DNA of 64,000 bases. It comes from Tildeniella torsiva UHER 1998/13D (GTDB lineage Bacteria > Cyanobacteriota > Cyanobacteriia > Phormidesmidales > Phormidesmidaceae). Below the pieces are notes generated by a model. The model made no database searches. It had not been told where the DNA came from and worked only from the letters and a program-made list of their open reading frames with translations. The translations under genes were made by a program, and so were the position numbers. The DNA is taken from assembly GCA_019358835.1 (NCBI GenBank), contig JAHHIH010000008.1, positions 62,001-126,000 of the forward strand, given 5' to 3'. Of the stretch, positions 3,696-64,000 are shown piece by piece; position 1 is the first letter of the stretch, and the number at the start of each line of letters is the position of its first letter.

Positions 3696-3848
3696 TGCTC
3701 ACACCTGCCGCTTGATCGCTAAAGACTTTGCCAGAATAGCGGATTTTGCGGCTGAGAATGCCTACGAAAGTTGGCCCCAAAGTTCTTGAGGCGATCGCGC
3801 AAAACGGGTACTATCCTCTGCTAAGATATGAAACTGCGAATGCAGCAC

Positions 3849-3889
3849 GGGCGATTAGCTCAGTTGGTAGAGCGCCTGCCTTACAAGCA
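3849..3889 (+). tRNA. tRNA-Val(UAC) 5' half, interrupted in the 3' side of the anticodon stem
   Basis: GGGCGATTAGCTCAGTTGGTAGAGCGCCTGCCTTACAAGCA: acceptor 5' strand, D-arm, CCTGC stem, CTTACAA loop; expected GCAGG is replaced by GCAAC and no T-arm follows. Confidence 0.78.
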
Positions 3890-19691: not shown

Positions 19692-19770
19692 GGTAACCAA
19701 GGATGCAGAGCTTTACCCGTGCGAAGCAGGACGAAAGGTTAAGTGGCCATGGCATAATTTCAGGCTATAG

Positions 19771-20958: not shown

Positions 20959-21138
20959 TATTTTTGAATGTCAACAAGAAGAAAATATTTCTGAAAAGCT
21001 TGCTCAACCCTGGAAACCCAAATATAGCAACCCTTTATCAAGATGTCGGTTATCTGAAGGAATATCAATTTAAGGGGGCATCAACGCGTTAGCTCTGTTA
21101 GATTAGGCGCGAGCTACGACACTATAAAGGGAAGCACT

Positions 21139-21234
21139 GTGTCAAAAGCATTCTGGCAAGCAAAGCTCTGGGGGCTGTTAGACGCTCCACTAAAGGAGTT
21201 GCACTGCATCTCTCCACAGGAGGCAGTGGCATGA
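21139..21234 (+). CDS. 31-aa ORF resembling the start of a Cas10/Cmr2 HD domain (remnant), overlapping cas10 by ATGA
   Basis: GTG start: VSKAFWQAKLWGLLDAPLKELHCISPQEAVA*; compare the LLHDPxxKALH pattern of Cmr2 N-termini. Confidence 0.5.
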   Translation: MSKAFWQAKLWGLLDAPLKELHCISPQEAVA

Positions 21235-22799: not shown

Positions 22800-22832
22800 C
22801 CCACCCAGCTCCCTCGCTGTTTCACACGCCCT

Positions 22833-23891: not shown

Positions 23892-23895
23892 CCCC

Positions 23896-24900
23896 ATGTA
23901 TTCCAAAGCCTACGGCATTATCAAAACCCTGGCCCCTCTCCATGTGGGCGCTAGCGCTGGTGAAGAAAGCGGCAACCTTAACCTGATCTTCCGCGACCAG
24001 TTTACTCAAACGGGTATTATCCCCGGTAGCTCTATTCGGGGCCGGTTTCGAGCCGATATGCGCAACAACCGCCAGGACTGGTTGGAGAGTCAGCTAGCCG
24101 ACCGTGGTATCACTGTCCCTGAAAATTTTGAGGAGATAACGCAGAATGCCCCATCAGGAGACCGCCAGCCTGATCGAATGTCGATATTGAAATGGCTTGA
24201 ACAGCAAGCTAAGCAGTGGGAGTCAGAGCATGAAGACTCTGATGCCTTTACGGTACCTGTCTCCTACAAAGAAAACCGTTGGTACGGCCACGAATCAGTT
24301 GATAATCAAAAAGATGGTGGCACTACAGAGGCGATCGTTAAGTTTGAGTATGCATCCCTAGTCTGGCTGCCTGTCTTCTGCCCAGGGCAGCCCATTGTCT
24401 GGGTCACCTGCCCCTACCTGCTCAAGCGCTACAAGCGGATTGCTGCGATTGCAGCCGATCTGCCGCTGCCCTACTCGGCCCCCAGCGGCTTGCAGGCTCG
24501 GCCCCTGGGCACAGGTCGCAAGGTGCTGTTCTTCAACCTTGGCTTTTTAGACATCGAGCACGAGGCGGATCTATCCCCCTGGGCAGCAGGGTTCGACATT
24601 GAGCACACCCAAACCGTGGTGGTAGCCGACAACGACATTGCCATTCTGCATGACATGGCCCTCTACCGCCAGAGCCGAGTCAAGCTGGTAGATGACATGA
24701 AAAAAGTGGATACCGACAAGGGAGCCTTTTTCAATGTCGAAGCCCTGCCAGAGGGCAGTGTGCTGGTCTTTCCCATCGCGCTCAAGCACACCGGGTGGCA
24801 ACCCTTTAGGCCAGCCACACCTTCCCAAGAACTCTATTTTGGCGGCCTAGAGTCTGTCGGTTTTGGCCGCTGCCAAGTCACCCTAGGAGGCACGTATTAA
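23896..24900 (+). CDS. cmr4: Cmr4-like Cas7-family RAMP (backbone)
   Basis: MYSKAYGIIKTLAPLHVGASAGEESGNLNLIFRDQFTQTGIIPGSSIRGRFRAD; ORF-track start is too far upstream. Confidence 0.9.
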   Translation: MYSKAYGIIKTLAPLHVGASAGEESGNLNLIFRDQFTQTGIIPGSSIRGRFRADMRNNRQDWLESQLADRGITVPENFEEITQNAPSGDRQPDRMSILKWLEQQAKQWESEHEDSDAFTVPVSYKENRWYGHESVDNQKDGGTTEAIVKFEYASLVWLPVFCPGQPIVWVTCPYLLKRYKRIAAIAADLPLPYSAPSGLQARPLGTGRKVLFFNLGFLDIEHEADLSPWAAGFDIEHTQTVVVADNDIAILHDMALYRQSRVKLVDDMKKVDTDKGAFFNVEALPEGSVLVFPIALKHTGWQPFRPATPSQELYFGGLESVGFGRCQVTLGGTY

Positions 24901-24902
24901 TC

Positions 24903-25355
24903 ATGGCATGGAATTCCTACGGCCTTGATCGAGAGGCCCAAAAGCTGGTGTTGGCCGCTCGCCAGCGAGATGAAAAATTGCCCAAAGCAGAGCGTTCAAG
25001 GAAGGCATCGCTAAACCAGGGACACAAGATGCGTATGGCCGTTCCCTACGGCCTGGAACGGTTTTGGGGTGAACACCTGCGGCTCCAAGAGAAAGAAACG
25101 AATAAAGCTACCTACTGGAAAGAAACCTGGGAAGCATTTGTGCACATCATGGCTCGGTCAGGGGTCACAATACCCAACGACGCTGTTGGGTATTCGGATA
25201 CCAAGGCCATTCAGGCGATGTCTGAAAAGCTCTGGGTTTTAACAATCGATGACCAGCGATTGGCTCTGGCGGTGCTGACGCAGCTCTGTGATGCGGTGGT
25301 GTGGTGGACACAGCGGTACAAAGGAGGGGCAAAGCTCAATGACTCAGATTCCTGA
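24903..25355 (+). CDS. cmr5: Cmr5-like small subunit
   Basis: 150 aa helical protein between cmr4 and cmr6. Confidence 0.7.
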   Translation: MAWNSYGLDREAQKLVLAARQRDEKLPKAERSRKASLNQGHKMRMAVPYGLERFWGEHLRLQEKETNKATYWKETWEAFVHIMARSGVTIPNDAVGYSDTKAIQAMSEKLWVLTIDDQRLALAVLTQLCDAVVWWTQRYKGGAKLNDSDS

Positions 25356-27045
25356 TGCTTACCAAAAAGTGCCGATGATGTTTCGGGCACAGGTCGATGG
25401 CCGCTGCCAGCTCCAGCGTATCTATCCCGCTCGCACCAAGGCCCGTGAACCCCAGGATGTAGAACTGTGGGTCGATGAATGGGTTGGTGAGGCCAGCGAT
25501 CGCCCCCCAAACCTACCCACCACAGGCAATCCTCAACCCTACGAAATCAACTGGCGGTTTGTCACCAACGGCGGCCAAGACGACGGCATCATTCGTCCTG
25601 TGATCGGGGCTTACGGCTGGCCCTTCTACCCCGGCAGCAGCATGAAAGGGGTCTTTCGCGCCGTCTGCCGCGCCGTCTGCACCCCAGAGCAGACCGATCG
25701 CTACTGCGGCAAAGAACTCCCCGGCGGCGACTTTCAGCCCGGCATTTTGCGCTTCCACGGTGGCTACCCCACCAGCACAGACTGGACAGAAGGCTTGGTG
25801 GATATGATTCACCCCCAGCAAGAGCGCCAGGTGCAGCGCGAAAAACGCACCCGCGCCTTTGCCCAAATCTCGCTCCGTCAGCCCCATCTGAGGTTTGGCA
25901 TTTCGAGCACGGTGCCCCTAGATGCAGCGGAGTGGGAAACCGTTTGGCAACTGTGGGAAACCGCCCTCGCCAGGGGACTGGGCTGTCGGGTGAGTGCGGG
26001 CTATGGCCAGGTGGCAAATCACACAGGCGAGGTGTTGTTTCACTGCACCCTGCAAGGGCAGGGGCAGGCCGCCAAGCTGATTGACCAGTCTGGAGAATTT
26101 CGACCCAACATCTTTCGCGCGGCGCTGCGGGGCCATGCCCTACGCCTGTTCGGTGGGCTCACCTCTGCCGAGCAGGCAGAGCGGCTGGTTGACCAGCTCT
26201 TCGGCAGCGTGCGGGGGAGCGGCGATGTCGGGCTGCTGGCCATGAGCTTTCAGCCAGGGCAACTGACGATGGGACGCTATGGGCGCGATCGCTGGCAGCA
26301 GCCCACCTACGATGTCGAGGGCGACCTCTACTGGATGCTCAACCGCCCGCTAGACAACGTGGCCCAGCGTCAGGCCCTCAGTAACTTGGCCAGGGCGCTG
26401 ATGCACTTTGCCATGGTCTTCGGCGGGTTCGGCAAATCCTGGCGACGGGCCGACCACCGTTTGTTTCACAAGGACTACGCCGAGCTATCCAGCAAGCCCC
26501 TGATCGGCTGTCACTGGCAGTGGGGGGAAGAGTCTCTGACCCGAAATTACCAAGTGCGCAAGCTGGAGAGTATCCCCGGTTTTCTCAATGCTGTTAGGGC
26601 AGTGGCCCAAACCTGGGTGAACATGCAGACAGCCCCAACCAGAGATTGGGCGGCAACCTGGCGCGAAGCCTGGCACCCCGACAAAGTGCAAGTGTGGGGA
26701 CGGCTAGCCGCCCACGAAGACGACAGCATCGCCATTCATTGGCTGCACGGCCCCTATCGCAGAGCCAATCGTGACCTGGGATTATCAGAGGGGACGATCA
26801 AAAATACCTCCGTCACGGGTCAGATGGGCAAAATTGGGCGGCTGTGGCACCGCATGTATCCAATAGTGCAGCTAAAAAAGCGCAAGGACGACCCCACGGG
26901 CAAACCCTTTGCAATCACCCCCGCCAAGGGCCAGTACCTGGAGCTGCTGACCCTGTTTCCCGATCAGTCATCAGTGGAGTGTCGGCAGTTTCTAAAATTT
27001 CTACAAAACGAGCAACCCGACTTTGTCCAGCTCTGGCCTCAGTAG
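25339..27045 (+). CDS. cmr6: Apparent Cmr6-Cmr1 fusion (two RAMP modules)
   Basis: N half PFYPGSSMKGVFRAV...RGLGCRVSAGYGQV (Cmr6-like); C half EFRPNIFRAALRGHALRLFGGL...VDQLFGSVRGSGDVGLL (Cmr1-like). Confidence 0.75.
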   Translation: MTQIPDAYQKVPMMFRAQVDGRCQLQRIYPARTKAREPQDVELWVDEWVGEASDRPPNLPTTGNPQPYEINWRFVTNGGQDDGIIRPVIGAYGWPFYPGSSMKGVFRAVCRAVCTPEQTDRYCGKELPGGDFQPGILRFHGGYPTSTDWTEGLVDMIHPQQERQVQREKRTRAFAQISLRQPHLRFGISSTVPLDAAEWETVWQLWETALARGLGCRVSAGYGQVANHTGEVLFHCTLQGQGQAAKLIDQSGEFRPNIFRAALRGHALRLFGGLTSAEQAERLVDQLFGSVRGSGDVGLLAMSFQPGQLTMGRYGRDRWQQPTYDVEGDLYWMLNRPLDNVAQRQALSNLARALMHFAMVFGGFGKSWRRADHRLFHKDYAELSSKPLIGCHWQWGEESLTRNYQVRKLESIPGFLNAVRAVAQTWVNMQTAPTRDWAATWREAWHPDKVQVWGRLAAHEDDSIAIHWLHGPYRRANRDLGLSEGTIKNTSVTGQMGKIGRLWHRMYPIVQLKKRKDDPTGKPFAITPAKGQYLELLTLFPDQSSVECRQFLKFLQNEQPDFVQLWPQ

Positions 27046-27083
27046 CTTTTTCCATCCACCCCTTCACCAACATCTAACGCACT

Positions 27084-28529
27084 ATGGCCACCTGGATTTT
27101 GACCCTTGGCGACAGCGATGTTTTGCTCAGCACCAAAGCCCAGTGGAGCAGTTTAGAAGGGCCAGCAAAGGCTCAATACCCCGATCTGCTGCATTTCAAC
27201 GGCACTGAGGTGATCACAGCGGACAGCAAACGGCTGTACAGCTTTCCGGCACGGGCGTTGGGTCTGGTGTATAGCCCACAGCCAGAGCAGCATAGCGCCA
27301 CTCTGCGCTTTCCACGATTGGAAGCATTGGTTCAGCACCTCGCCCAGATCTCCACTCCGCCCCACCACATTGTGGTGCTGCTGACCGATCAATCCCTGTT
27401 GTTTGGCCCGAGCGATCGCCGCCTGCCCCGCTGTCCCTACTGGCGCGATACCTGCACCCTGGAACCACTGCTGCGGCACTTTCTCAGCCACGCCCTGCCT
27501 CGTGCCACTCAATCCTATTGCACCATTGCGCCCCTGTCCGACCAGCCTGGCCTAGACCACTGGGACAGTACGCTCTCGCTAATTCAAGCCTCGCTTGGCC
27601 AGGTAGACTGCACGCCGGGCAAGCCAGTCTTTGTAAGCCACCAAGCAGGCACCCCGGCGCTTTCATCAGCGGTGCAGTTTGTGACGCTGACCCGATTTGG
27701 GTCGCAGGTTCAATTTTTAGTCAGTAGTGAGTTTCAAGCAAACGCCTCAGAGCTAATCCCTAGCTCGACCTACCTGCTGGGCATTCGCCTGCAAGAAGCC
27801 AGGCGGCTACTACATCGCTACGACTATGCAGGTGTACAGGATGTGTTGAAGCAAGATTTGCCTGCTCTAGAACCAGCTGTGAGGCAGAGAATTGAGGGCT
27901 TACTCAACTCCGCCATTCTTTGGAACCAGGCCAAGTTTGCTGAGTTTGCTGCCTCACTCCAAGAAGCACCTGACAGAACGAAAGAGTGGTGGTGGGCGGC
28001 CTACGAGTCAGCTTTTTTGGCGTTGGTGCGGCTAGAACAGGGCAATACTGTAGAAGCTCTGTTCCATAGCTTTCGTGCGGCAGAAGGTATGTTGAGCGAC
28101 TGGGCTAAGTGGCGCTACCCAGAAGATATTAAGGCAAATAAAAAGGGTGCTCCGGTTGCCTTCCTACGAGAAGATAGTGGTTTACCTGCTTACTTGAAAG
28201 AAAAATTGGTAGGCGAAATTGATGGCCTGATGCTTTATAGCGGAGGATTATTTGAACTTTTTAGATCAGCTTGCCCAGCTGTCTCTGACAACGAAGACGT
28301 AAATGTCATCTGGAAAGGGGCCAGCAGCACAAGAAATCAGCAGTTTCATAGACTTTTAGGCTTAAGCGAAAAGGAAGTTTTTCGTTCTTGGGCCACTAAA
28401 GAAAATAAAGATGCTTGGCAGCAACGATTACTAAATTGTCTAAATTCTATTGCCAATCAGAACTTTGAATCTATTCAAGCAGCCAGCTTAATGGCAAATA
28501 TTCATCAGGACTTGAAAACTATTCTATAA
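27084..28529 (+). CDS. Csm6/Csx1-like CARF-HEPN accessory protein
   Basis: N-term WILTLGDSDVLL, VSHQAGTPALSSAVQF (CARF-like); C-term RNQQFH matches HEPN RX4H. Confidence 0.65.
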   Translation: MATWILTLGDSDVLLSTKAQWSSLEGPAKAQYPDLLHFNGTEVITADSKRLYSFPARALGLVYSPQPEQHSATLRFPRLEALVQHLAQISTPPHHIVVLLTDQSLLFGPSDRRLPRCPYWRDTCTLEPLLRHFLSHALPRATQSYCTIAPLSDQPGLDHWDSTLSLIQASLGQVDCTPGKPVFVSHQAGTPALSSAVQFVTLTRFGSQVQFLVSSEFQANASELIPSSTYLLGIRLQEARRLLHRYDYAGVQDVLKQDLPALEPAVRQRIEGLLNSAILWNQAKFAEFAASLQEAPDRTKEWWWAAYESAFLALVRLEQGNTVEALFHSFRAAEGMLSDWAKWRYPEDIKANKKGAPVAFLREDSGLPAYLKEKLVGEIDGLMLYSGGLFELFRSACPAVSDNEDVNVIWKGASSTRNQQFHRLLGLSEKEVFRSWATKENKDAWQQRLLNCLNSIANQNFESIQAASLMANIHQDLKTIL

Positions 28530-28564
28530 GAATGATCTGCTTGGATGCTACTTTCAGAACTAAC

Positions 28565-31846
<3,282 letters not shown>

Positions 31847-31991: not shown

Positions 31992-32336
31992 TCAGTCAAC
32001 GCCCCAATCGTCATCGCTCAGGCCATCCTCACCAGGCGCGGGCGCGAGCGTAGGTGTGGGTTGATGGATAACGGAAGGTACGGATTGGTTAGGAACCACC
32101 GTATGAGGAGCCATTTGAACCGTTGGGGCTGAGTCAGAGTGAGTGCTTGATTTCTGGATGAAGCTAATCAAAGCGTAGTTCAGCAGTTCAGAATCACTAA
32201 GAGCACTTCCAGCTTCGCCAAGAACCTCGCGGGCTTTAGCAATCAGTCCTTTTTGAGTCGAGACACGAACGGTGTTCCGTTCTACTCGCTTAGTGCTTTT
32301 TCTACGGGTTTTGGGCTTGGAGTTTGAAGTTGTCAT
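31992..32336 (-). CDS. ParR-like ribbon-helix-helix protein
   Basis: NTVRVSTQKGLIAKAREVLGEAGSALSDSELLNYALISFIQK, RHH-like, directly following a ParM-like gene. Confidence 0.6.
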   Translation of the reverse strand: MTTSNSKPKTRRKSTKRVERNTVRVSTQKGLIAKAREVLGEAGSALSDSELLNYALISFIQKSSTHSDSAPTVQMAPHTVVPNQSVPSVIHQPTPTLAPAPGEDGLSDDDWGVD

Positions 32337-33448
32337 TATGCGGCCACCTTTTGGGATAGTTCTTGTGCAAGAGAGTGCAAACCTAGGGCATTCGCGAATT
32401 GGGGGTCAGAGACAGTCTTGAAGCCAAGACCTGAGGCCCATTCCTTAACCCCAGGAACGAGGGAGCCACCACCAGAGAGCAGTAGTGTCCGCCCAGGCTC
32501 GTTTAAGTAGCTAGCCGAGAGACTCTGGTGCAATTCGCTCTCCAGGCTGTTCAGCCAGCGGGTGACCACAGGTGCGATCACTTCGCGGCAGTCGAGTTTA
32601 ATCTTCCCTACGGTAGCGATCCCTTTGTTCTTGAGCATGGACATCAAACCCTCGTTAGACATGACCCGCGCGTAGTGGGGAGCCATAGCCGCATCAGAGC
32701 GAATAAGTGATTTCAATTCATTACAGACTGTCAAGTTCCCGAGCAAGGCTTTAACACCGCTATGAGGAAGCTCGATTACAGAATCAAGGGCAAGGCGCGC
32801 TTTGTTCATTGGAATTGCCAAAACAGTGCCGCCGCCAATGTCGAGAATGAAAGACTTTAATGGACGGTTGTCCTGTCCAAGGACAACTCCAGCGCTTTCG
32901 TAAACAACATTCAAAACGCTGATGCAGAAGGTTTTGGTTTCTTGTTTCTCATCATTTGAGGTATAGGTAACGCTATGGACGCCATCTAAACCATCTTTCA
33001 TAGCCTGACCGTAGGCACTTTTGTCATGGACACTGACTACGACCTTTAGGCAATCCCCATTCTGTATATATGGCCAGATTGCAGAGACTAGCATTGGAAA
33101 CGCATAACGAGGCTTGCCATTACCGCTGGGGTCACCCACGATTACCTGAAAGGGGTTGTAAACCGGATTCGTACTCCAAGATTTGAAAAACTCGCGGCTG
33201 TTATCCTTCTCAGGATCGGTGAATAGAGTGAAGCTATCGGAGCTCTCTTCCTGAACAATACTATTCTGGTCAGTAGCTAACGAGGAAGGAATAACAATCT
33301 TCTCTATCTTTCCGTCAAGTGTCTTAACACAGACTTTAGTCCAGTGGTTGCCAGGGTCGAATCCGATGATTAGCTGTTGCATTGAGTCTTGGTTCCTTTT
33401 CTGAGTTTTGCAGTTTACCGAGCAAGTTGCGGCGGTGTTGTGTTGCAT
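32336..33448 (-). CDS. parM: ParM/StbA-like actin-fold ATPase; likely start at 33382 (MQQLIIGFDPGNHWTK)
   Basis: IIGFDPGNHWTKV, FILDIGGGTVLAI, TLLLSGGGSLVPGVKEW phosphate/adenosine motifs. Confidence 0.75.
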   Translation of the reverse strand: MQHNTAATCSVNCKTQKRNQDSMQQLIIGFDPGNHWTKVCVKTLDGKIEKIVIPSSLATDQNSIVQEESSDSFTLFTDPEKDNSREFFKSWSTNPVYNPFQVIVGDPSGNGKPRYAFPMLVSAIWPYIQNGDCLKVVVSVHDKSAYGQAMKDGLDGVHSVTYTSNDEKQETKTFCISVLNVVYESAGVVLGQDNRPLKSFILDIGGGTVLAIPMNKARLALDSVIELPHSGVKALLGNLTVCNELKSLIRSDAAMAPHYARVMSNEGLMSMLKNKGIATVGKIKLDCREVIAPVVTRWLNSLESELHQSLSASYLNEPGRTLLLSGGGSLVPGVKEWASGLGFKTVSDPQFANALGLHSLAQELSQKVAA

Positions 33449-33486
33449 GGCGGGTTTTGTTTTTGGTATATCAACATTGGCCTTTT

Positions 33487-33524
33487 TGAACCATTGTTGT
33501 CACAATTGTACCAACTTTGGTTCA
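33487..33524. promoter_or_regulatory. two 18-bp palindromic sites upstream of parM-like gene
   Basis: 33487 TGAACCATTGTTGTCACA and 33507 TGTACCAACTTTGGTTCA, 20 bp apart; variants of TGYRCCAANNTTGGYRCA. Confidence 0.6.
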
Positions 33525-37229: not shown

Positions 37230-40200
37230 ATGACCCCAGCAGATACCCAGCGCATCCAGACTTTTTTGGCTAAGTGGCAAGGATCAGAGGGCAATGAACG
37301 CGCCAATTACCAGGGGTTCTTTCTCGACTTGTGCCTGGCTCTGGGGGTAGAGAGCCCACCACCCAAGGGAAGAATCCCTGGAGACCCTTACTGCTTTGAC
37401 AAGGACATCAAGTTTTTCAGCAGCGAAAAGGCTGAATCAACGCGCTTTGCTGACTTTTACAAAGAGGGCTGCTTTCTAATTGAGGCTAAGCAGGGCAGTA
37501 CCGAGTCGAGCAAGGGCCACGGCAAGCGGGGTACTAAGGTCTACCGCGACACCATGCAGAAGGCGTTTAACCAGGCCAAGTCCTACGCCTATAACCGCTT
37601 ACTGGGCTCGATGCCACCGTTCCTCCTAACCTGCGACATCGGCTCTCACTTTGATCTTTGGGAAGGCTTTAGCGGTGAGTACGGCAGCTATGGTGCACGC
37701 CAGCGCATTGAGCTGGCCGACCTAGCGACAGAGAAGGAGTTTGATCGCTTCGTCGCCATCTTTACCGATCCGCAGTCGCTCAACCCAGAAAAGCTAAGGG
37801 CTCAGGTCACGCGCGCTGTAGCGGCAGAGCTAGCTAAGCTATCACGTTGGCTAGAGGAGCAAGGTCACGACCCTCAAGTAACCGCTAGCTTCTTGATGCG
37901 CTGCATTTTCACGATGTTTGCCGAAGATGTGGAGCTATTGAAAGGCGAAGTCTTTACCAAAGCCCTGCGTGATCGCTGGATACCCAACCCCGCCACCTTT
38001 AAGCCCGAAATCGAGCAGCTCTGGCAGACCATGAACACAGGCGGCACCTTTGGCTTTGAGCGGGTATTGAAATTTAACGGCAGCTTTTTTGAAGATGCTA
38101 CGGCTATTGCCCTTCCACAAGAACAGCTCCAAACCTTACTTGAAGCCGCTGAAAAAGACTGGAGTCAGGTAGAACCTGCTATTTTTGGCACCTTGGTTGA
38201 GCGGGCCCTTGAGAAAAAAGAGCGCAGCCGATTGGGGGCACACTATACGCCTCGATCTTATGTAGAGCGGCTAGTGCGTCCTGTGGTGATGGAACCTCTG
38301 CGCCAAGAGTGGGATGAGATTGAGCTGGAGGTAAATCGCCTGCTAGAGCTAGAGGCAGGTAGAGAGGAACCTACCGCTAATCAGCGCAGAAAGGCTGAGC
38401 AAGAGATCCGCGCCTTCCTCGACAAGCTGCGGACTGTCAGAATTCTTGACCCAGCCTGTGGTACGGGCAACTTTCTCTATGTGTCACTCGATTTGCTCAA
38501 AGGGCTAGAGGCCGAGGTGCAGACGCGCCTGGTGGATGTGGCGGGCAATGTGCAGCTCAATGTGCTGGAGCAAATAAACCCGTCGCAGTTTTTGGGGATT
38601 GAGATCAACCCGAGGGCAGCAGCTATTGCCGAGCTGGTGATATGGATTGGCTATTTGCAGTGGTTTTTTAAGCGCTATGGCAATGCAGAACCACCAGAGC
38701 CGGTCTTGCAGGCGTTTAACAATATCGAAAACCGCGATGCGGTGCTGGCCTATGACGGCACCGAGCCAGATGTGGATGCCAAGACGGGGCAGGTGAGAAC
38801 GCGGTGGGGTGGGCGGATGATGCAACACCCAGTAACTGGGGAGCAGGTGCCCGATCCCAGCGATCAGGTGGTGATCTATAAGTATTTCAACGCGCGGGCG
38901 GCAAAGTGGCCAGATGCAGATTATGTGGTATCAAACCCCCCATTTATTGGGAATGCTCGAATGAGAGAAACCTTAGGTGATGGGTACACAGAAACGTTAC
39001 GTCGAATATACAAAGATGTTTCGGAAACCGTTGACTATGTAATGTATTGGTGGCACAAAGCCGCTAATAGAATTCACGCCGGAAGTACTAAGAAGTTCGG
39101 GTTTATTACCACTAAGACGATCCGACAACCTTGGCAAAGAAAAGTTATTGAGTTTCACCTTTCTCATAAAAATCCCATACGCATAATGTTCGCAATACCT
39201 GATCATCCTTGGGTTGATGAGGGAGCTGCTGTCAGGATCGCTATGACTGCAGCAGCAGCAGAAAGTGTTGAGAGCATCAAAAGAATAGCAAGGCTGGGAA
39301 CTGTTATCTCTGAGGGAGAGTCCGAAACGCCAGAAGACACTGCTGAGCAAATTGAAATTTGTTGGGAATCAGTCTCTAAAATATTTGCAAATCTCCGAAT
39401 TGGAGCAGATATTAGCAACACGATGAAGCTCAAAGCTAACGGAGGTCTCGTTTCTAGAGGAGTAACTCTTTCAGGGCAAGGTTTCGTTTTAGATAGTAAA
39501 CAACTTAAGGAGATATTGCAAAACCAATCTTCCTCGTCCGAAGTCATTAAAACTTATAAGGCAGGAAAGGATTTGATTCATGTTAACAAGAAGAGATTTG
39601 TTATTGATTTATACGGTTTGGATGAGAAGACGGTTTTACAAAAATATCCGAGTATATATCAGTGGGTTTTACAAAGGGTCAAGCCTGAGAGAGATACGAA
39701 TAACAGAAAATCCTATCGAGATAATTGGTGGATATTTGCTGAGCCGAGAGCAAATATTCGTCCTGCGCTTACTGCTATACAATCCTATATTGCGACTCCA
39801 AGAACTGCAAAACATAGGTTCTTTACGCTCTTGCCAGTAGATGTTATGTCTGAGAGCGAGATAGTGATGATTGCCCTCGAAGATGTCTATTTTTTGGGAA
39901 TACTCTCAAGTCACGTTCATGTCTCTTGGGCTCTTGCAGCAGGTGGGCGCTTAGGGGTCGGAAACGATCCGCGCTATAACAACTCCGTTTGTTTCGATCC
40001 TTTTCCCTTTCCAGATCCAACTTCCGAGCAAAAGCAAAAAATCCGTAATTTGGGCGAGCTGCTCGACACTCATCGCAAAAGTGTCCAAGCCGCCTACCCC
40101 GACATCACCATTACTAACATGTATAATCTGCTCGAAAAACTTCGTGCTGGGGAGCCTTTTACCGACGCAGATCGTGAATTTAATAACGAAGCACGCGTCT

Positions 40201-40691
40201 CTACCCTCAAACAAATCCACGACGAGCTAGACATTGCCGTTCTCGACGCTTACGACTGGCCTCACGACATCACTGACGAGCAAATCCTCGAAAACCTTGT
40301 GGTTCTTAATGCCCAGCGGGCTGAAGAAGAGCGCAATGGACTTATCCGCTGGCTACGTCCTGAGTATCAGGCACCTGATGAAGTGCAAACACAGCCTACT
40401 TTAGAAGGCATTATGACCTCAGAAGAACCCGTTGTCGAACCTGTGGAGCAGCAGAAGTGGCCATTGAAACCTAAGGAACAACTCGCAGCTATTCGAGACC
40501 TGTTGCGTACTACCAGCGGTGAGTGGACAGTCAAGCAAATAGCAGTTCAATTCACCGGCAGGAACACCAGGAACAAGTTGGACGCGATCACTGAGAACCT
40601 GGAGCGGCTGGAATGGTTTGGGCTAGTGCTATCTGAGGAGCGCGAGGGCATACTATACTGGCACTTCGCTGAGATAGTAAAGATCGCTTAA
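37230..40691 (+). CDS. MmeI-like (type IIL/IIG) fused restriction endonuclease-methyltransferase
   Basis: Nuclease core DFYKEGCFLIEAK (D-x9-ExK); MTase motifs LDPACGTGNFLY and VVSNPPFIG. Confidence 0.85.
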   Translation: MTPADTQRIQTFLAKWQGSEGNERANYQGFFLDLCLALGVESPPPKGRIPGDPYCFDKDIKFFSSEKAESTRFADFYKEGCFLIEAKQGSTESSKGHGKRGTKVYRDTMQKAFNQAKSYAYNRLLGSMPPFLLTCDIGSHFDLWEGFSGEYGSYGARQRIELADLATEKEFDRFVAIFTDPQSLNPEKLRAQVTRAVAAELAKLSRWLEEQGHDPQVTASFLMRCIFTMFAEDVELLKGEVFTKALRDRWIPNPATFKPEIEQLWQTMNTGGTFGFERVLKFNGSFFEDATAIALPQEQLQTLLEAAEKDWSQVEPAIFGTLVERALEKKERSRLGAHYTPRSYVERLVRPVVMEPLRQEWDEIELEVNRLLELEAGREEPTANQRRKAEQEIRAFLDKLRTVRILDPACGTGNFLYVSLDLLKGLEAEVQTRLVDVAGNVQLNVLEQINPSQFLGIEINPRAAAIAELVIWIGYLQWFFKRYGNAEPPEPVLQAFNNIENRDAVLAYDGTEPDVDAKTGQVRTRWGGRMMQHPVTGEQVPDPSDQVVIYKYFNARAAKWPDADYVVSNPPFIGNARMRETLGDGYTETLRRIYKDVSETVDYVMYWWHKAANRIHAGSTKKFGFITTKTIRQPWQRKVIEFHLSHKNPIRIMFAIPDHPWVDEGAAVRIAMTAAAAESVESIKRIARLGTVISEGESETPEDTAEQIEICWESVSKIFANLRIGADISNTMKLKANGGLVSRGVTLSGQGFVLDSKQLKEILQNQSSSSEVIKTYKAGKDLIHVNKKRFVIDLYGLDEKTVLQKYPSIYQWVLQRVKPERDTNNRKSYRDNWWIFAEPRANIRPALTAIQSYIATPRTAKHRFFTLLPVDVMSESEIVMIALEDVYFLGILSSHVHVSWALAAGGRLGVGNDPRYNNSVCFDPFPFPDPTSEQKQKIRNLGELLDTHRKSVQAAYPDITITNMYNLLEKLRAGEPFTDADREFNNEARVSTLKQIHDELDIAVLDAYDWPHDITDEQILENLVVLNAQRAEEERNGLIRWLRPEYQAPDEVQTQPTLEGIMTSEEPVVEPVEQQKWPLKPKEQLAAIRDLLRTTSGEWTVKQIAVQFTGRNTRNKLDAITENLERLEWFGLVLSEEREGILYWHFAEIVKIA

Positions 40692-41892: not shown

Positions 41893-42513
41893 TCAGGCCG
41901 CGTATTTTTCCCTCCACTCGGCTATTTTCTCCTTCAATTTGGCTGGATTATTACTGAACTGGGATTTGATGCTGTTAAGCTCCCACTCTTTCTTTCGCTC
42001 TAAATCCTCGTCGTATTCGTCGTCAAAATTACGCTCTGGTTCACATTCGTCGTCAGGGAAAGGGTTTTCGTCATCATTAAACTGAGCGTCTGGTTTTTGA
42101 ACCTGCTTAGCAATCCCAATCTCTCGCTGCATTCTCTCTCGGGATGGCGGTTCATATCCTGCGAGCCCTTCCTCAATAACAACAGGTCGCGGTCTTCTCG
42201 GCGGCGGTGTGTATAGAACAGCGTCGTCTTCATCATCATCTTCAAGCACGGGCGCTTTAGTTTCTTTAGCGGGCTCAGACTTAACCGCAGCTGCGGCCTG
42301 GGGAAGCTCAGGGGCTTCAAGCTGTACTGCGGGCAGTACAGAGGGTTCCTGTGTTGAAGCGGGCGTGGTGCCCTCGTGCGCTTCAACCTCCCGGCTCAGA
42401 AGGTAAGCAACGAAGGTGGAGAGGCTCATTTGCTTAGATGCCGCCAGTGATTTGGCTCTGGCCTCTAGGTCGTGGGTGAGGTACGCGGAGATTTTCTTTT
42501 TGTCAGTGGTCAC
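41893..42513 (-). CDS. RHH (CopG-like) N-terminal domain protein with acidic tail
   Basis: KKISAYLTHDLEARAKSLAASKQMSLSTFVAYLLSREVE. Confidence 0.6.
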   Translation of the reverse strand: MTTDKKKISAYLTHDLEARAKSLAASKQMSLSTFVAYLLSREVEAHEGTTPASTQEPSVLPAVQLEAPELPQAAAAVKSEPAKETKAPVLEDDDEDDAVLYTPPPRRPRPVVIEEGLAGYEPPSRERMQREIGIAKQVQKPDAQFNDDENPFPDDECEPERNFDDEYDEDLERKKEWELNSIKSQFSNNPAKLKEKIAEWREKYAA

Positions 42514-42527
42514 AGGTCTACCCTTTT

Positions 42528-42690
42528 GGTGGAGTTACCTCCATTGTACCGTAAGTGGAGTTACTTTAACTCCATAGTGGAGTTGTTTCTATGCAACTTT
42601 ATTTGGCGGGGTGGTGGAGTTGCTTGAATAACTCCATACTGGAGTTACTTTAACTCCAGTATTAAAGCGTTTGGGGCCACATGGAGTTAC
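42528..42690. promoter_or_regulatory. cluster of TGGAGTTA palindromic sites
   Basis: 42556-42574 TGGAGTTACTTTAACTCCA; 42638-42660 ACTGGAGTTACTTTAACTCCAGT; several half or imperfect sites. Confidence 0.75.
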
Positions 42691-42744: not shown

Positions 42745-42920
42745 AATCGCTGAAACCCTTACACAGCAAGGGTTTTAGGAATCCCGCAATCCCAAAAACA
42801 GAGAATCCCTGAAACCCTTATATACCAAGGGTTTCAGGGATTAGCGAAGAATGATTTGCGGGATTTGGGAATTTTTGTTCATCGCCTGAAGCCCTTTCAA
42901 GGTAAGGGTTTCAGGGATTT
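42745..42920. repeat. three related hairpins (CCTGAAACCCTT...AAGGGTTTCAGG)
   Basis: Best copy 42804-42842: AATCCCTGAAACCCTT-ATATACC-AAGGGTTTCAGGGATT, 16-bp perfect arms. Confidence 0.8.
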
Positions 42921-45823: not shown

Positions 45824-46216
45824 ATGACAAAAGTTCAACTCAAAAAACGAGAAGCCACGCGACGGCTCTTCCTTGAATATCTCAAAACCCCTAGCCTGCG
45901 GGAGTTAGCGCGCCGTTCTGGTATCGCCTACCGCACACTAGCTTATAGATTTCAACATCACATCCATCGAGATTACGCTGACCTAGTCCGGCGCGGAATC
46001 TTCGTGGTAATCAGACCTCACCTATTTTCTAAAAGCGCTCGGATTAGAGAACAAGTTTCTATTTGGTTAGTCGAAAATCTCGACTTAATCATACAGAACG
46101 AGGCTCATAGCTCGCGCGTTGTCTTCAGTGAAAAGAAATTAGACCGGCTTACCTATTCAGAATGCGGTCGCATCGGTGATTACCGAGACAACCTGCTGGA
46201 GGTACTGGCATGTTAG
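45824..46216 (+). CDS. HTH-like protein
   Basis: SLRELARRSGIAYRTLAYRFQHHI. Confidence 0.45.
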   Translation: MTKVQLKKREATRRLFLEYLKTPSLRELARRSGIAYRTLAYRFQHHIHRDYADLVRRGIFVVIRPHLFSKSARIREQVSIWLVENLDLIIQNEAHSSRVVFSEKKLDRLTYSECGRIGDYRDNLLEVLAC

Positions 46217-53698: not shown

Positions 53699-53857
53699 TG
53701 TGTCAAAGTTGGCGCATGTGTACCAACTTTGGCGCACTCTGTACCAAAGTTGGCGCAAAGGTGCCAACATTGGCGCACATTTTTAGGAGTTTCGAAAAGT
53801 GTGCCAAAGTTGGCGCATTTGTGCCACAGTACGCCAATTTGTACCAACTTTGGCACA
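53699..53857. repeat. iteron-like array of 18-bp palindromes at 20-21 bp spacing
   Basis: Copies start at 53699, 53719, 53740, 53760, 53800, 53820 (degenerate), 53840; consensus TGYRCCAANNTTGGYRCA. Confidence 0.92.
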
Positions 53858-53956
53858 CCAAAAACACCCCAAAAAAGGGCCTATTTTTCAGCTTTTTCCT
53901 GACATCCGTAAGACTCAATTCGAGACTAAAAATTATTTCTCAACACCAGCTCAACG

Positions 53957-55073: not shown

Positions 55074-56543
55074 ATGGTATCCACCACTTTTGCCAACCTT
55101 ACTCGACCCGGCACGTTTCTTGTCGAGACCACCGCGGGTTACCGAGCGCCTGAGCTCGCAAGCTTTAATACTGTCTACATGGTCGGCAGTTCAACCACTG
55201 GTGACTACGGCACCCCCACCCTGTGCACCAGCCTAGAAGACTTCAGCAATCAGTTTGGCTCTAGCCCTTCTGAGGCAAGCGTGAAGCTGTTCTTCCGCAA
55301 CGACCGGCAGGGCAAGTTGTTCTTCATTCGCACCCGAATCGCTGACCTGTTCGAGATTACCCTCGTTGACATTACCGCTGGCGCTGTCGTTATCACTATC
55401 AACGGTACCGCTGTCTCCACGACTTTGGTGGGTGATGAGACTGAAGCTGAGGCCATCGCCAAGTATGTCCTGGCCATCAACGGTTCTGCTGTTGCCTCCG
55501 CTGTAACCGCTGTTTCTGGTGGTACTGACAGCGTTCTGATTCGCTCTGACAATCCCGCTGTCGCTCTAACCGTTGTTTCGGTTGATGCTGACCTAGAGGT
55601 TGATGAAGTTACCCCTGCGTCTTTGCCTACCGCCAGCGATTACATCTACGCCATCGAAAATACCTTTGATGCGCTGGGTGGTAAGAACCTTGATCAAGGC
55701 TTCCTGATTGCACCTGAGGGTTTCCAAAACCTGAGCGATGCCACCGACCGTCTGGCCCTGGGTACTGCTATGGAGAACCTCTGCGCTGACAAAGACTTTG
55801 ACTGGATGGCTCTCGTTGACTGTGGCCCTGGTCTAACCACCGTGGCTCAAATTCAAACTGACGGTCAGCAGTACAGCACTCCTCAAGGTCATTTGGCCTT
55901 TTATGCTCCCTACGTCATTGATTTGGAAGACGGTGTTGTGCCTCCTTCTGCTGCGATCGCTGGCCTAGCTACTCGTCGCTACCGCAGCCAGGGATACCAT
56001 CAACCTCCCGCTGGCGCTCAGTTCCCCGTCCAGGGTGTCAAGGATGTTCAGACTCGCTTTGGCAACACTCAACAGTCTGTTCTCAACCCACTGGGTATTA
56101 ACCTCGTTCGATTTCTCTTGAACCTGGGTGTGGTCGCTTGGGGCGCTAGAACCCGCTCTAGCAATAGCTTCTACACCTTCGTCAACACCAGGGTCATCCT
56201 GAATGCCTTGAATGGCACCCTGCGCGATGCCTTTGATTACGAGATTTTCTCGACCGTCGATGGCTTCGGTATTTTGTTCTCTCGTATTCAAGAGACTGCT
56301 CGCTCCATCTGTCGCCGGTTCTGGCTCAGTGGTGCTTTCTACGGCCAGAGCGAACAGGAAGCCTTCGCCTGCATTTGCGATCGCACCAACAATCAAGCTG
56401 ATGACCTTGAGAACGGTAACGTCCTCCTCGAAGTGTACGTCGCCCCTTCACCAACTTTGGAGAAGCTCCTGGTGAACACCATCCGCGTGGGCATCGGCCA
56501 AGTCGAAAGCGCTGCTGCTGCTGGTCAGACAATCACCAACTAG
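55074..56543 (+). CDS. contractile tail sheath protein
   Basis: PGTFLVETTAGYRAPELASFNTVYMVGSS...NPLGINLVRFLLNLGVVAWGARTRSS...FVNTRVILNALNGTLRDAFDY. Confidence 0.85.
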   Translation: MVSTTFANLTRPGTFLVETTAGYRAPELASFNTVYMVGSSTTGDYGTPTLCTSLEDFSNQFGSSPSEASVKLFFRNDRQGKLFFIRTRIADLFEITLVDITAGAVVITINGTAVSTTLVGDETEAEAIAKYVLAINGSAVASAVTAVSGGTDSVLIRSDNPAVALTVVSVDADLEVDEVTPASLPTASDYIYAIENTFDALGGKNLDQGFLIAPEGFQNLSDATDRLALGTAMENLCADKDFDWMALVDCGPGLTTVAQIQTDGQQYSTPQGHLAFYAPYVIDLEDGVVPPSAAIAGLATRRYRSQGYHQPPAGAQFPVQGVKDVQTRFGNTQQSVLNPLGINLVRFLLNLGVVAWGARTRSSNSFYTFVNTRVILNALNGTLRDAFDYEIFSTVDGFGILFSRIQETARSICRRFWLSGAFYGQSEQEAFACICDRTNNQADDLENGNVLLEVYVAPSPTLEKLLVNTIRVGIGQVESAAAAGQTITN

Positions 56544-57934: not shown

Positions 57935-57965
57935 TTGAAAGCCTTATATAGCAAGGGTTTCAGGA
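57935..57965. repeat. fourth copy of CCTTATATAGCAAGGGTTTCAGG hairpin family
   Basis: CTTGAAAGCCTTATATAGCAAGGGTTTCAGG. Confidence 0.6.
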
Positions 57966-58037: not shown

Positions 58038-58532
58038 ATGGCCGCTAAAACCCTTACATATCAAGGCAAAACCCAGACTTACGCAGAGTGGGCTGCTGAA
58101 ACAGGTATCAAGCAAAGTACCCTTATAGGTCGCGTCAAAGCAGGCTGGCCTGTCGAACGTACCCTGACTGAACCTGCCAGAAGCGGGCGCAGAAAAAAGC
58201 CTGTGGACGCTTCCCTAATCGGTAAAAAGATTGGGGAGAATCTAAGTGTTAAGGAAAAGATGGGGTCTTCCAATAACTACATTGTTGAAAACAGGGATGG
58301 TTCCAAGTCTTGGTTGGTTCCTGGTTATACCCTGTTAAAGCCTCAAAATCTACAGTTAGATGAATCGTCTCTTCGGGCTCGATACTACGTGACGGACCCT
58401 GACAAGACAGAGGTGGGTGTTGTCAATCTAAACGCCTTCTGTGAAGTGGTGAAACTTGACTTCAACATTATGTTGAGGGTCGCTGAAGGCCAACAAGCTA
58501 CTCACAAAGGCTGGAAGTGTCGTAGGGCATAA
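58038..58532 (+). CDS. DNA-binding-like protein inserted between chaperone and tape measure
   Basis: LTYQGKTQTYAEWAAETGIKQSTLIGRVKAGWPVERTL HTH-like repeat seen in mobile/phage proteins. Confidence 0.5.
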   Translation: MAAKTLTYQGKTQTYAEWAAETGIKQSTLIGRVKAGWPVERTLTEPARSGRRKKPVDASLIGKKIGENLSVKEKMGSSNNYIVENRDGSKSWLVPGYTLLKPQNLQLDESSLRARYYVTDPDKTEVGVVNLNAFCEVVKLDFNIMLRVAEGQQATHKGWKCRRA

Positions 58533-58582: not shown

Positions 58583-60565
58583 ATGGCAAATACCGTTCAG
58601 ACACGCATTGTAGCGAAGGATGAGGCATCATCCGTTTTCGCTCAGCTCAACAATTCAATGCGGTCGAGCGTGCTTCAGGGGAACCTGATGGCCAGCGCGA
58701 TTACCGCTGGGTTAGGGGCCGCTACTAGAGGTGTTGGTGCCTTAGCTAGTGGAATGAGAGAAGTCGTTGGCATTCAGCAATCGAATATCGCCGTCGCTGG
58801 CGATTTCATGAAGCTAACAGGCCAGAGCTACGGTGAGGCTACCGAGTTCATCGACAACTTTTCAGCCTCTATGGCCAAGGCCGCAGCATCTCTCCCAGGG
58901 GATACAAAGGACTATGTGAGCCTGGGTAAGGGCATCATGGATAACCTCATTCCCGCCTTTAAGGGGCTTGATGGTGTCCTCAATGAGGCCGACTACACCA
59001 AGGCCCTAGAATCCATCACCAAAATGGGTGCTCTGAGAGCCGCTACGTCTGGTGTTGACACGAATCTAGCTAGCCAGGGCCTATCCAAAATGTTGGGTGG
59101 TTCTAGCCTGGCAGAGCTGAAAAACCTCAAGTTCTTTGAGGCTAACCCCGCCGTAATCGCTTTCATTGAGGAAGAAGCCCAGAAGATGGGCAAGGGTCTA
59201 AAGGACATGACCGCTCGTGAGCGCGCAACAGTCTTAGAAGCCGCTCTCGCTGTGCCTGACGAGGTGATCGCAGCATCCACACAGAGTATTGAGGGTTTGA
59301 TTCAAGGTCTTAAATCTAGCCTGCTCGACCCGCAGGTTGGTCTATTCGGCTTGATGCGCGACCTGGAGCCCAATGTTAAAGGGAACCAGACGGTTATCCA
59401 AGCGACGAACGACCTCTTGAAGAAGATTATGTCGCCTGGTGGGCCGCTAAGCAGCCTCAAAGACATCTTCGAACTCATCGGGGTTGAGATGGGTGACCCG
59501 ATGGAGTCACTCTATAACTCCATCAACTGGACGAGTAATAAGCTCGACCAGCTAGGCGGCTTTCTGGATAGAAACCAAGCCGGTATCTCGAAATTTGTCT
59601 ACGGTGCCAAGCAGTCGTTCGAGAAGTTAAAGGAAGCGCCAGGCAAGTTCATCTCTGAGTCAATCAGCTCTTTGTTGAGAGGCTTCAACGCTTCTAGAGG
59701 TGCTGGCTCTACCGATTACGGCAGCATCGTAGGCAAAGCGCTGGCGCAGGCCACTAACTTCTTTGCTTCACAAGTCCTGTCCATGATTGGCAATATGGAC
59801 TACGGTGCACTGCTGGTAGGGCTCTTCAACGTTGGAAAGATTGTCATCTCTGGCATAGGTTCCTTCCTAGCAAACCTTGATTGGCAAGTACTGATGATGG
59901 GTGGTTTAGCTGTTCTTGGAGCGGCACTACTCACGGCTGTGATGGCTACCGCAGTTCCAGCTATCCTCTCGTCCTTCGCCACTGTAGCTGTCTTAATCGG
60001 TGCTGGTATCGTTGCCACGCTCACAGGGCCTGTAATCCTCGCGATCGCTGGCGTTGGCCTTGTCATCGTAGGAGCCATGAAATACTTTGGCGTCTCCTTC
60101 CAAGATGTGATGAGGTTTGTCTTCGAGGCTGTGACAGGGTTTGCGAATCCGGTTATCGCAGCTGCGCGGATAGGTTTCAACCTTCTGAGGTCTGCTATCA
60201 CCGCTGTGATTGGTGGAATTACATCCGCTTTCAATGCGGTTAGAGGTCTAGTGAACCGTATTCCTGGGATGGGCGTAGGCAGAGCTGACAGTGTTCCTAA
60301 CGCAGCTGCTGGCTTCATCCCAGATGCCTTCAGACGGGAAATGAACGCTATGCCCGCTGGGGCGAGCCCAGTGATTGCTAATTCAAGCGAGCTAATTCTC
60401 AATCGTGAGCAACAGGCCGCGCTGCTTCAGCCTAGGAGCAACAGCATCAACTTTGGGGGAATCACGATCAACGCCGGTAACTCAACGAATCCCAAAGAGC
60501 TTGCTAGTCAGGTCATTCGGGAAATCGAGATGCGCCTTCAACAGTCACAGATGAGGCTTGCATAA
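58583..60565 (+). CDS. tape measure protein
   Basis: 660 aa, hydrophobic central segments, position before baseplate genes. Confidence 0.8.
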   Translation: MANTVQTRIVAKDEASSVFAQLNNSMRSSVLQGNLMASAITAGLGAATRGVGALASGMREVVGIQQSNIAVAGDFMKLTGQSYGEATEFIDNFSASMAKAAASLPGDTKDYVSLGKGIMDNLIPAFKGLDGVLNEADYTKALESITKMGALRAATSGVDTNLASQGLSKMLGGSSLAELKNLKFFEANPAVIAFIEEEAQKMGKGLKDMTARERATVLEAALAVPDEVIAASTQSIEGLIQGLKSSLLDPQVGLFGLMRDLEPNVKGNQTVIQATNDLLKKIMSPGGPLSSLKDIFELIGVEMGDPMESLYNSINWTSNKLDQLGGFLDRNQAGISKFVYGAKQSFEKLKEAPGKFISESISSLLRGFNASRGAGSTDYGSIVGKALAQATNFFASQVLSMIGNMDYGALLVGLFNVGKIVISGIGSFLANLDWQVLMMGGLAVLGAALLTAVMATAVPAILSSFATVAVLIGAGIVATLTGPVILAIAGVGLVIVGAMKYFGVSFQDVMRFVFEAVTGFANPVIAAARIGFNLLRSAITAVIGGITSAFNAVRGLVNRIPGMGVGRADSVPNAAAGFIPDAFRREMNAMPAGASPVIANSSELILNREQQAALLQPRSNSINFGGITINAGNSTNPKELASQVIREIEMRLQQSQMRLA

Positions 60566-61627: not shown

Positions 61628-63832
61628 ATGTTCCAACCGTATGCCCGAATTGAAGTAGGTATGGGGGATGAGAGCCAAACGTTCTCCTGGGGCGATGGGA
61701 AACTGCGTGCAGTCTCTGTCACTCTCTCAGAAGGTAAAGGCCTATCAGGCTGTACTTTCAGCATCTACGACGAAGACCGCAAAGTAACAGATGCGTTCCT
61801 TGCCTACATCAAGGAAATCGAGGGGCTTGAGCCTGTAGAGGAACCTGGTCAGGCCGCAGCTGCTGGAGCTGAACCAGAGACCTCAGCATCTCCCGCTATC
61901 TCTGGTTCAGCACCAGCGGCAGGGTCATATGGGAGTTCTACCCTCACAGCTGAACAAGTCGGCAATGCCTACACGATCGCTAGTGTTGGAGCTAGCCTAG
62001 GCGCTACCCGATGGGACTTGGAAGTAGCCCTGATGACGGCACTTCAGGAATCCAGTCTCAGAAACCTAAGGGGCGGCGATAGAGACTCCGCTGGGCTTTT
62101 CCAGCAAAGACCCTCCCAAGCCTGGGGCAGCTACGCAGAAATTACTAATCCTTCCTACTCAACGGGCGCTTTCCTCAGAGGAGCTGGCACCAACAAAGGG
62201 CTCTTTGATTACCCGAAGCGTCAGCAGGAATTTACTAAAGGCCAGGCCGCACAAAGAGTTCAAAGAAGCGCTTTCCCCGATGCCTATAACGCGTGGGAAG
62301 ACGAGGCGACCGCCCTGCTCAACGCGATGGATATCAACTACCAGGGCGCAGCACTCACCCCTGAACAGGAAACCTCAACGAGTCAAGAAGCCGCTACCCA
62401 GAGCACGGCTAAGCGAAACCCTGATGTACCAGGGCGCAGCGAGACTCTAGCGGGTCAGCAAATCACCCTCTATCTCGGGTTCGACGGAAAGCCCCTGGTT
62501 GCCTATAGCTTCATTCATACCGGCCTGAGCTACAGTCTCTATGATCAATCGACTCTAGAGTTCACAGGCACAGCCGCTGCTTGGGTGATGCACCAGGCCC
62601 CCAAGAACTCGGCCTATACCAACATCTCCCTCAAGCAGCTCGCTGAGAAGATTGCGGCTAACTATGGCCTCAGAGTGGACATGCAGGTTGAAGGGCCCAG
62701 GTATGTCTACATCTCCCAGAAAGCGCTGACTGATTACCAATTTCTGCTGCAGGAGTGCGAGCGGGTCGGGCTCATCCTTAAGAATGTTGGAAACAACACC
62801 CTGGAGATTAAAGCGCGATCAGAAACGCTGGAGCAGGGCAACGACAACATCTACACCCTGGCCATCGGCAAGAACCTAAATAACTTCAGCGTGAGCCATC
62901 AAGCTCAGTCGGCTGGTGGTTCAGCGCGTTCTTCTGAACCTGGCGAACAAAACTCCACTGGGGTCAAGAAGTTCGAGCTCAACCCGGATACTGGGTTAAT
63001 CGAAGAGGAGACCGCTGAGACAACAGACGCCAAAGGTGCAGACGAAACCGAATCCACTACTGGCTCTAACGTTGATAGCAATCGCCCTCTAACTACTGGT
63101 GTTACTGACCTCGAAGACGGGCAGCGGAGAGCTAATGAGCAGCGGGTTAAAGGGATTGAGGCTACCTACTCGGCTCCTTCAACTCCTGAAATTCTTATCC
63201 TGACGCCTGATGACCCCATTCGAACTGAGAAGCTCGGCGGGTTCCTCAATCGAATCTGGGTGCATGAGTCTGTGACTCACACGCTGGGCGCAGACACAGG
63301 TTTCGTCACCAGCGGAAAGCTCTACACACCTCTCCGCAATAAATATCTGACCCCTGAACCTGTGGCGGCTGAAGCTGGCGCGTCTGGCACTGCTCCCCCC
63401 AGTGGCGATGCTCCTGCATCAAAGGCAGGCGGCTTTATCAGACCTGTCTCCCAACCCATCAATTCTCCCTTTGGCCCTCGCTGGGGAAGACAGCATGGTG
63501 GTGTGGACTTCGCCTGTCCCATCGGTACAAACATATGGGCATCAGCGGCTGGAACTGTCGAGTCAGTTACAACCAGTTGCCCCCTCAACGGGTACAGAGG
63601 TAGCGGCTGCGGCGGAGGCTTTGGCAACAACATTGTCATCGCTCACGCTGGTGGAATCAAAACCTACTACTGCCACCTCGATGGAGACAATATTTTTGTC
63701 TCTCCCGGCGCTACGGTTCGCCAAGGCCAGCAGATAGCTAAGAGTGGAAACAGCGGTAGCAGCACTGGCCCTCATTTGCACTTTGAGTTTCGAGTCAGCG
63801 GCACACGAGTTGACCCGCAGCGGTACATCTAA
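61628..63832 (+). CDS. tail hub (gpD-like) with internal lytic-enzyme-like domain and C-terminal M23 peptidase domain
   Basis: ALMTALQESSLRNLRGGDRDSAGLFQQRPSQAWGS; C-term FGPRWGRQHGGVDFACPIGTNIWAS...HLDGD...GSSTGPHLHFEFR. Confidence 0.8.
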   Translation: MFQPYARIEVGMGDESQTFSWGDGKLRAVSVTLSEGKGLSGCTFSIYDEDRKVTDAFLAYIKEIEGLEPVEEPGQAAAAGAEPETSASPAISGSAPAAGSYGSSTLTAEQVGNAYTIASVGASLGATRWDLEVALMTALQESSLRNLRGGDRDSAGLFQQRPSQAWGSYAEITNPSYSTGAFLRGAGTNKGLFDYPKRQQEFTKGQAAQRVQRSAFPDAYNAWEDEATALLNAMDINYQGAALTPEQETSTSQEAATQSTAKRNPDVPGRSETLAGQQITLYLGFDGKPLVAYSFIHTGLSYSLYDQSTLEFTGTAAAWVMHQAPKNSAYTNISLKQLAEKIAANYGLRVDMQVEGPRYVYISQKALTDYQFLLQECERVGLILKNVGNNTLEIKARSETLEQGNDNIYTLAIGKNLNNFSVSHQAQSAGGSARSSEPGEQNSTGVKKFELNPDTGLIEEETAETTDAKGADETESTTGSNVDSNRPLTTGVTDLEDGQRRANEQRVKGIEATYSAPSTPEILILTPDDPIRTEKLGGFLNRIWVHESVTHTLGADTGFVTSGKLYTPLRNKYLTPEPVAAEAGASGTAPPSGDAPASKAGGFIRPVSQPINSPFGPRWGRQHGGVDFACPIGTNIWASAAGTVESVTTSCPLNGYRGSGCGGGFGNNIVIAHAGGIKTYYCHLDGDNIFVSPGATVRQGQQIAKSGNSGSSTGPHLHFEFRVSGTRVDPQRYI

Positions 63833-63907: not shown

Positions 63908-63965
63908 TGCGCCAAACTTGGTACATATGCGCCACATCTGGTACATACGCGCCAACTTTGGCACA
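63908..63965. repeat. three further 18-bp palindromes at exactly 20 bp spacing
   Basis: 63908 TGCGCCAAACTTGGTACA; 63928 TGCGCCACATCTGGTACA; 63948 CGCGCCAACTTTGGCACA. Confidence 0.88.
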
Positions 63966-64000
63966 CCAAAATTAATTTCTCAAAAAGTGAGCCACCCTTG

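Follow-up and report, generated by a model that had tools for sequence, protein, structure and literature searches.

Which protein would bind a palindrome that is repeated at a fixed pitch just behind a phage tail-hub gene, and to what end? This question is raised by the right edge of a 64,000-nt stretch of Tildeniella torsiva UHER 1998/13D DNA (the window; positions 62001-126000 of contig C37), which carries much of a myovirus-like prophage. The original prediction had described a cluster of three palindromes at this edge as part of a distributed system, and arrays of the motif are indeed found at three loci of the contig, termed C1, C2 and C3 (Table 1). As argued below, we put at about one-half the probability that all three are bound by a single prophage protein, most likely a ParR, which would autoregulate its own parMR operon and control or silence two operons for virion structure.

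Palindrome arrays at three loci

Each site is an 18-bp imperfect palindrome, TGYRCCAA-NN-TTGGYRCA, with a core of tG..cCAa..tTGG..CA; positions G2, C6, A7, T12, G13, G14, C17 and A18 are invariant in 13 sites, and individual sites are mostly symmetric at 12-14 of 18 positions (background mean 4.6). At the window edge, the sites starting at 63908, 63928 and 63948 have a pitch of exactly 20 bp, as originally described; the count of three, however, proved too low. Following the array to the right, a check that had been proposed at the outset, doubled it, with one empty 20-bp slot being succeeded by three further sites. C3 thus has six sites in two triplets and ends at 64045, its final 45 bp lying outside the window. 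The second triplet is approximately a copy of the first (94 % identity over 64 bp), and slots 2 and 5, as well as 3 and 6, are identical, which indicates a direct duplication of the triplet. The first site is found 75 bp past the TAA of the hub/M23 peptidase gene (61628-63832), so that the cluster does follow this stop codon closely, but it also precedes the next operon, which begins with an ATG at 64156.

To establish how far the arrays stand out from the surrounding sequence, ~202 kb of the contig was scored with weight matrices from whose training the cluster in question had been left out. The 12 strong sites of C2 and C3 received values of 15.7-25.5 and the strong C1 site at 33507 a value of 22.5, compared with 13.8 for the best other position. 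Furthermore, every match with 0-1 mismatches in the 5.8-Mb genome fell on this element, and shuffled windows contained no array comparable to C1-C3. The three approaches agree in ruling out a chance repeat, which had been considered very unlikely from the beginning. No additional clusters of the motif were detected to the right of the window, where ~76 kb of contig was covered, and neither the remaining genome nor the collections scanned yielded a second cluster; the 66 other genomes examined from the order gave 0-5 one-mismatch matches each, with no cluster among the matches listed. CRISPR (clustered regularly interspaced short palindromic repeat) sequences are present at 18.9-19.7k and 28.5-31.8k, and were rejected as the identity of the arrays on the basis of their different sequence.

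All three arrays were observed to have a common polarity, in which the array is followed by ACCAAAA(A), AAGACTC and a start codon (ATG). The start codons faced in this manner are those of a parM-like gene (C1), the tail operon (C2, which sits between the head module and this operon) and the baseplate operon (C3). Among the gaps between late genes, C2 and C3 occupy two of the three largest, and no array sites were found in coding sequence or convergent gaps. The AAGACTC element is rare, with 14 copies on the scored ~202 kb, yet each leader has one of them, in the same sense; this 7-mer was chosen after the leaders had been seen, so that its distribution lends support but does not amount to a formal test. 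The same orientation in every array, with a leader directed towards a start codon, speaks for control linked to promoters and against the arrays being no more than a DNA handle. A search for intrinsic terminators at C3 returned nothing convincing.

Table 1. Coordinates of the arrays and associated genes (window numbering)
Feature	Position	Strand	Basis or remarks
C3 sites 63908, 63928, 63948, 63988, 64008, 64028	63908-64045	+	Motif search, held-out weight matrix; 64008 and 64028 = L010:4008-4045
C3 spacer slot AAAATTAATTTCTCAAAAAG, empty	63968-63987	+	20 bp, holds array register; C2 equivalent 53780-53799
C2 sites 53699, 53719, 53740, 53760; empty slot 53780-53799; 53800, 53820 (degenerate), 53840	53699-53857	+	Motif search, held-out weight matrix
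C1 (parC position), slots 33507 (strong), 33487 (weak), 33467 (degenerate)	33467-33524	-	Directly upstream of parM-like gene
Tail operon leader	53858-53956	+	ACCAAAAA at 53857, AAGACTC at 53910
Tail operon downstream of C2	53957-63832	+	Sheath 55074-56543, tape measure 58583-60565, hub/M23 peptidase 61628-63832
ParM-like actin gene	32336-33448	-	PHROG 691, ParM profile, motifs; start 33448 or, more likely, 33382 (MQQLIIGFDPGN...)
Candidate ParR, 114 aa	31992-32336	-	Position and sequence pattern; 1-bp overlap with parM

A ParM-like operon downstream of C1

The gene faced by C1 matches the PHROG 691 partition protein (E = 2e-9), and its family profile matches solved ParMs, the best being PDB 3js6 'ParM' (E = 4e-13); the match to Pfam ALP_N (E = 7e-4) fell below the cut-off. 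Additionally, the protein shares with distant cyanobacterial homologues the DxG, DIGGGT and GGGS motifs, which are the phosphate and adenosine nucleotide motifs of the actin fold. On these grounds it is assigned as a ParM-type actin-like ATPase such as those of ParMRC systems, albeit one with very low sequence identity to solved ParMs; a single-sequence fold prediction was uninformative (pLDDT, the predicted local distance difference test score, of 36).

The gene that follows specifies the candidate ParR, in which a strand-like stretch (VRVST), two confidently predicted helices, a proline-rich linker and an acidic, W-containing C-terminal tail can be recognized; judging by this pattern, its N-terminal part is probably a ribbon-helix-helix (RHH) domain. 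A parM-like gene followed by a small RHH-like gene is the layout of ParMRC, or type II partition, operons, and C1, with three 20-bp slots of which one is strong, holds the place of parC upstream of parM. The canonical position of C1 lends new support to the idea of a multi-site centromere, one of the roles initially proposed for the motif, although we would rank this role as secondary. A parC confined to a single locus is not what we found, given the arrays at 53699-53857 and 63908-64045, if one protein binds them all.

Many distant cyanobacterial homologous loci with readable flanks likewise have a small gene of RHH-like pattern, tail included, just after parM. Repeats upstream of parM were present in several closely inspected relatives, as three palindromes each in G256:C58 and G256:C23 and as 11-bp iterons in G448; in both G256 cases they are confined to this site. 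The G256:C23 contig (L078-L080) is that of a distantly related prophage, with a tyrosine integrase, a ParM/ParR-like pair and a related capsid.

A proposed role for ParR at all three arrays

With C1 at the parC position and larger arrays at two structural operons, we favour one binder for the whole set, probably ParR. C1-C3 would then be the predicted sites of one cooperatively binding dimeric protein, most likely the product of 31992-32336. At C1, the putative parC of a type II operon, ParR molecules would line up at 20-bp intervals, repressing parMR and providing the grip for ParM filaments. Copies of the module of array plus leader would have come to lie at the promoters of the tail (C2) and baseplate (C3) operons, where bound ParR may prevent the expression of both or tie it to that of parMR whilst the element is being maintained. 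Once the element has excised, ParM filaments could possibly also attach at the late arrays, as additional points of contact. A more ambitious version of this proposal, which we advance tentatively, is a dispersed type II centromere, in which ParR, by binding parC arrays at the promoter of its own operon as well as at the operons for tail and baseplate, would link ParM-driven DNA positioning with virion structural genes, silencing them or setting their timing. Should this be the case, a partition adaptor would double as a regulator of lysogeny and late genes via parC built into structural-gene promoters, and actin-based systems would gain a counterpart to the cases of phage N15 and plasmid pSM19035.

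A number of observations weigh against ParR as the common binder. The candidate ParR has no match in Pfam, PHROG or NCBIfam and no PDB fold match, so its assignment rests on position and pattern; its link to the motif is indirect, and other candidate binders are encoded in the element (RHH-like 41893-42513 and 72778-73434, and helix-turn-helix (HTH)-like 45824-46216). C1, the array at the operon itself, is the weakest of the three, with one strong slot and the others weak or degenerate. Furthermore, a sigma-70 consensus search of the leaders found no good promoter, and the element appears to be chromosomally integrated, leaving a partition system without an obvious role before excision. Finally, dispersal of such arrays was seen in one element only.

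Comparison with known systems

Known ParRs are RHH proteins that bind repeats upstream of parM, and descriptions of parC place it at one locus (PMC9426499, PMC5016525). The ParMRC systems of plasmids R1, pSK41 and pCW3 and of the Clostridium botulinum chromosome (Cb-cParMRC) share with the present operon both the order of a parM-like and a small RHH-like gene and the repeats upstream of parM. The 20-bp unit corresponds to that of pSK41, where ParR binds 20-bp repeats (PMC9426499) in continuous arrangement (PMC5016525), and the palindromic character to that of Cb-cParC, whose repeats are also reported to be bound by ParR (PMC12270681). In the element studied here, by contrast, the array recurs, in larger copies, at two structural operons of the phage.

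For arrays that would be centromere and operator at once, the best working analogue is omega/parS (type Ib) of pSM19035, in which an RHH protein binds to several arrays of iterons, each serving as centromere as well as promoter operator (PMC5016525). This system differs in having no actin-like motor and another motif, and its promoters are those of plasmid copy-number and maintenance genes rather than virion operons. For dispersed centromere sites in a prophage the analogue is the Sop system of N15, whose partition palindromes of ~18 bp are located in several places (IR1-4; PMC7205306, PMC5016525); it is, however, a type Ia ParAB system with single sites instead of arrays, on a linear plasmid prophage. 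Here, the gene beside C1 encodes an actin-like ParM, and no ParA or ParB was found among the subset of element proteins searched, which sets the element apart from the SopAB type of N15 and F. Prophage CGP3 of Corynebacterium glutamicum, with AlpAC/alpS, provides the analogue for actin-like DNA transport in an integrated prophage, combining an actin-like protein with an adaptor that binds DNA and having repeats at the promoter of the operon (PMC4446434), but its adaptor gene precedes the actin gene and alpS consists of short TTAAnnG repeats concentrated at one promoter; arrays at late operons are not described in PMC4446434.

Alternative explanations

The promoter-proximal position of every array, with its common polarity and leader, would also suit the operators of a separate phage regulator, such as a CI-like repressor or a late activator of the RHH or HTH type, in which case the parMR promoter would be one member of a regulon and C2 and C3 would have no partition function. 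As triplets of palindromes spaced by roughly 20 bp, the arrays resemble lambda-type operators. Further RHH- and HTH-like genes exist in the element, and the RHH-like gene 41893-42513 is preceded by an array of its own, TGGAGTTA..TAACTCCA, suggesting that autoregulatory arrays are a style of this element. That gene is, however, already provided with a different motif, no CI-like gene was recognized among the left-arm genes examined, and C1 sits exactly at the parC position; a separate regulator appears somewhat improbable to us.

If the arrays were mainly a distributed centromere, ParR on all three would join excised phage DNA to ParM filaments or cluster the DNA, comparable to the four scattered sop sites of N15, and effects on transcription would be incidental. 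The presence of a ParM/ParR-like operon with a parC-like array is in keeping with this, as are the 6-7 slots of the late loci, which exceed those of C1, and the precedent of scattered centromeres of the sop/OB type (PMC5016525; N15 IR1-4, PMC7205306). A handle, however, needs neither strict promoter-proximal polarity nor common leader motifs, and sites are absent from coding sequence and convergent gaps; in addition, the two relatives checked hold parC-like repeats at one place. We regard this explanation as unlikely.

A role at the RNA level, with the arrays forming long mRNA hairpins that serve between modules as signals for processing, stability or attenuation, would draw on predicted folds that are far stronger than those of shuffles (z = -6.4 for C3 and -7.3 for C2). 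Near-palindrome arrays nevertheless fold by construction, and the C1 fold is weak (z = -1.9). The C3 triplets, moreover, are a direct duplication (slots 2/5 and 3/6 identical), compared with hairpin arms that match at only 12-13 of 18 positions, and a strict 20-bp register with a retained empty slot is a feature of the DNA helix, making RNA elements very unlikely.

Least probable of all are strict stoperators, roadblocks to elongating polymerase in the lysogen, for which a stoperator-like role had been put forward at first and in whose favour is the location of sites in late-region intergenic gaps: those of the temperate mycobacteriophage L5, although also repeated protein sites at operator and intergenic positions, are asymmetric 13-bp monomer sites oriented with transcription, mostly single and numbering >20 per genome, bound by a repressor with HTH and stoperator domains (PMC9283540), as opposed to the imperfect 18-bp palindromes found here in three arrays only, just before start codons.

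Distribution in sequence collections

The same phage was present in IMG/VR (100 % identity over 21 kb), and a search of this database with the motif pair matched only this phage. In GTDB the motif pair gave eight scattered matches in unrelated organisms, compared with ~4 expected by our own estimate, so that neither collection yielded another convincing case. Close relatives of the ParM were found neither by peptide scans of IMG/VR and GTDB nor by tblastn of plasmids and phages, and no similar arrays were seen in the parts of records read from 14 IMG/VR sheath relatives and four cyanophages.

Setting of the element and neighbouring features

Just to the right of the phage genes lies a tRNA-Val (TAC) gene (73550-73622). 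A 78-bp direct repeat (99 % identity), comprising the region upstream of this tRNA and its 5' half, is found at 3812-3889 and 73513-73590 (L010); from the left-hand copy, the integrated element may span about 3.9-73.6k, and the repeat is likely to be an attachment-site duplication bounding an element of ~70 kb that includes the CRISPR/Cmr region. In a genome of the same genus (G033) the tRNA-Val neighbourhood has no phage. A family search of the contig detected no tyrosine or serine recombinase.

In the CRISPR/Cmr region (18870-31800), Cmr-like genes, which from inspection of the proteins would be of type III, are surrounded by two CRISPR arrays whose repeats are related; the region directly adjoins the parR-parM end of the prophage. 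A comparison of the spacers with the contig gave only chance matches of 13-17 nt.

Two further repeat families were noted. Inverted repeats of the form TGGAGTTAC..TAACTCCA at 42530-42690, directly upstream of the RHH-like gene 41893-42513 (- strand), probably constitute the operator array of this gene. A second dispersed palindrome, TGAAACCCTT-N7-AAGGGTTTCA, occurs in three copies between a DNA-polymerase-like and an RHH-like gene (42751-42913) and again in a gap of the tail region (57936-57962, with a weak copy at 58043); all four copies with ≤1 mismatch are on this contig. The left arm of the element also contains a gene for an MmeI-like restriction-modification protein (37230-40691), and HNH/homing-endonuclease-like genes are scattered through the element (4030-5119, 58038-58532 and L010:5268-5915).
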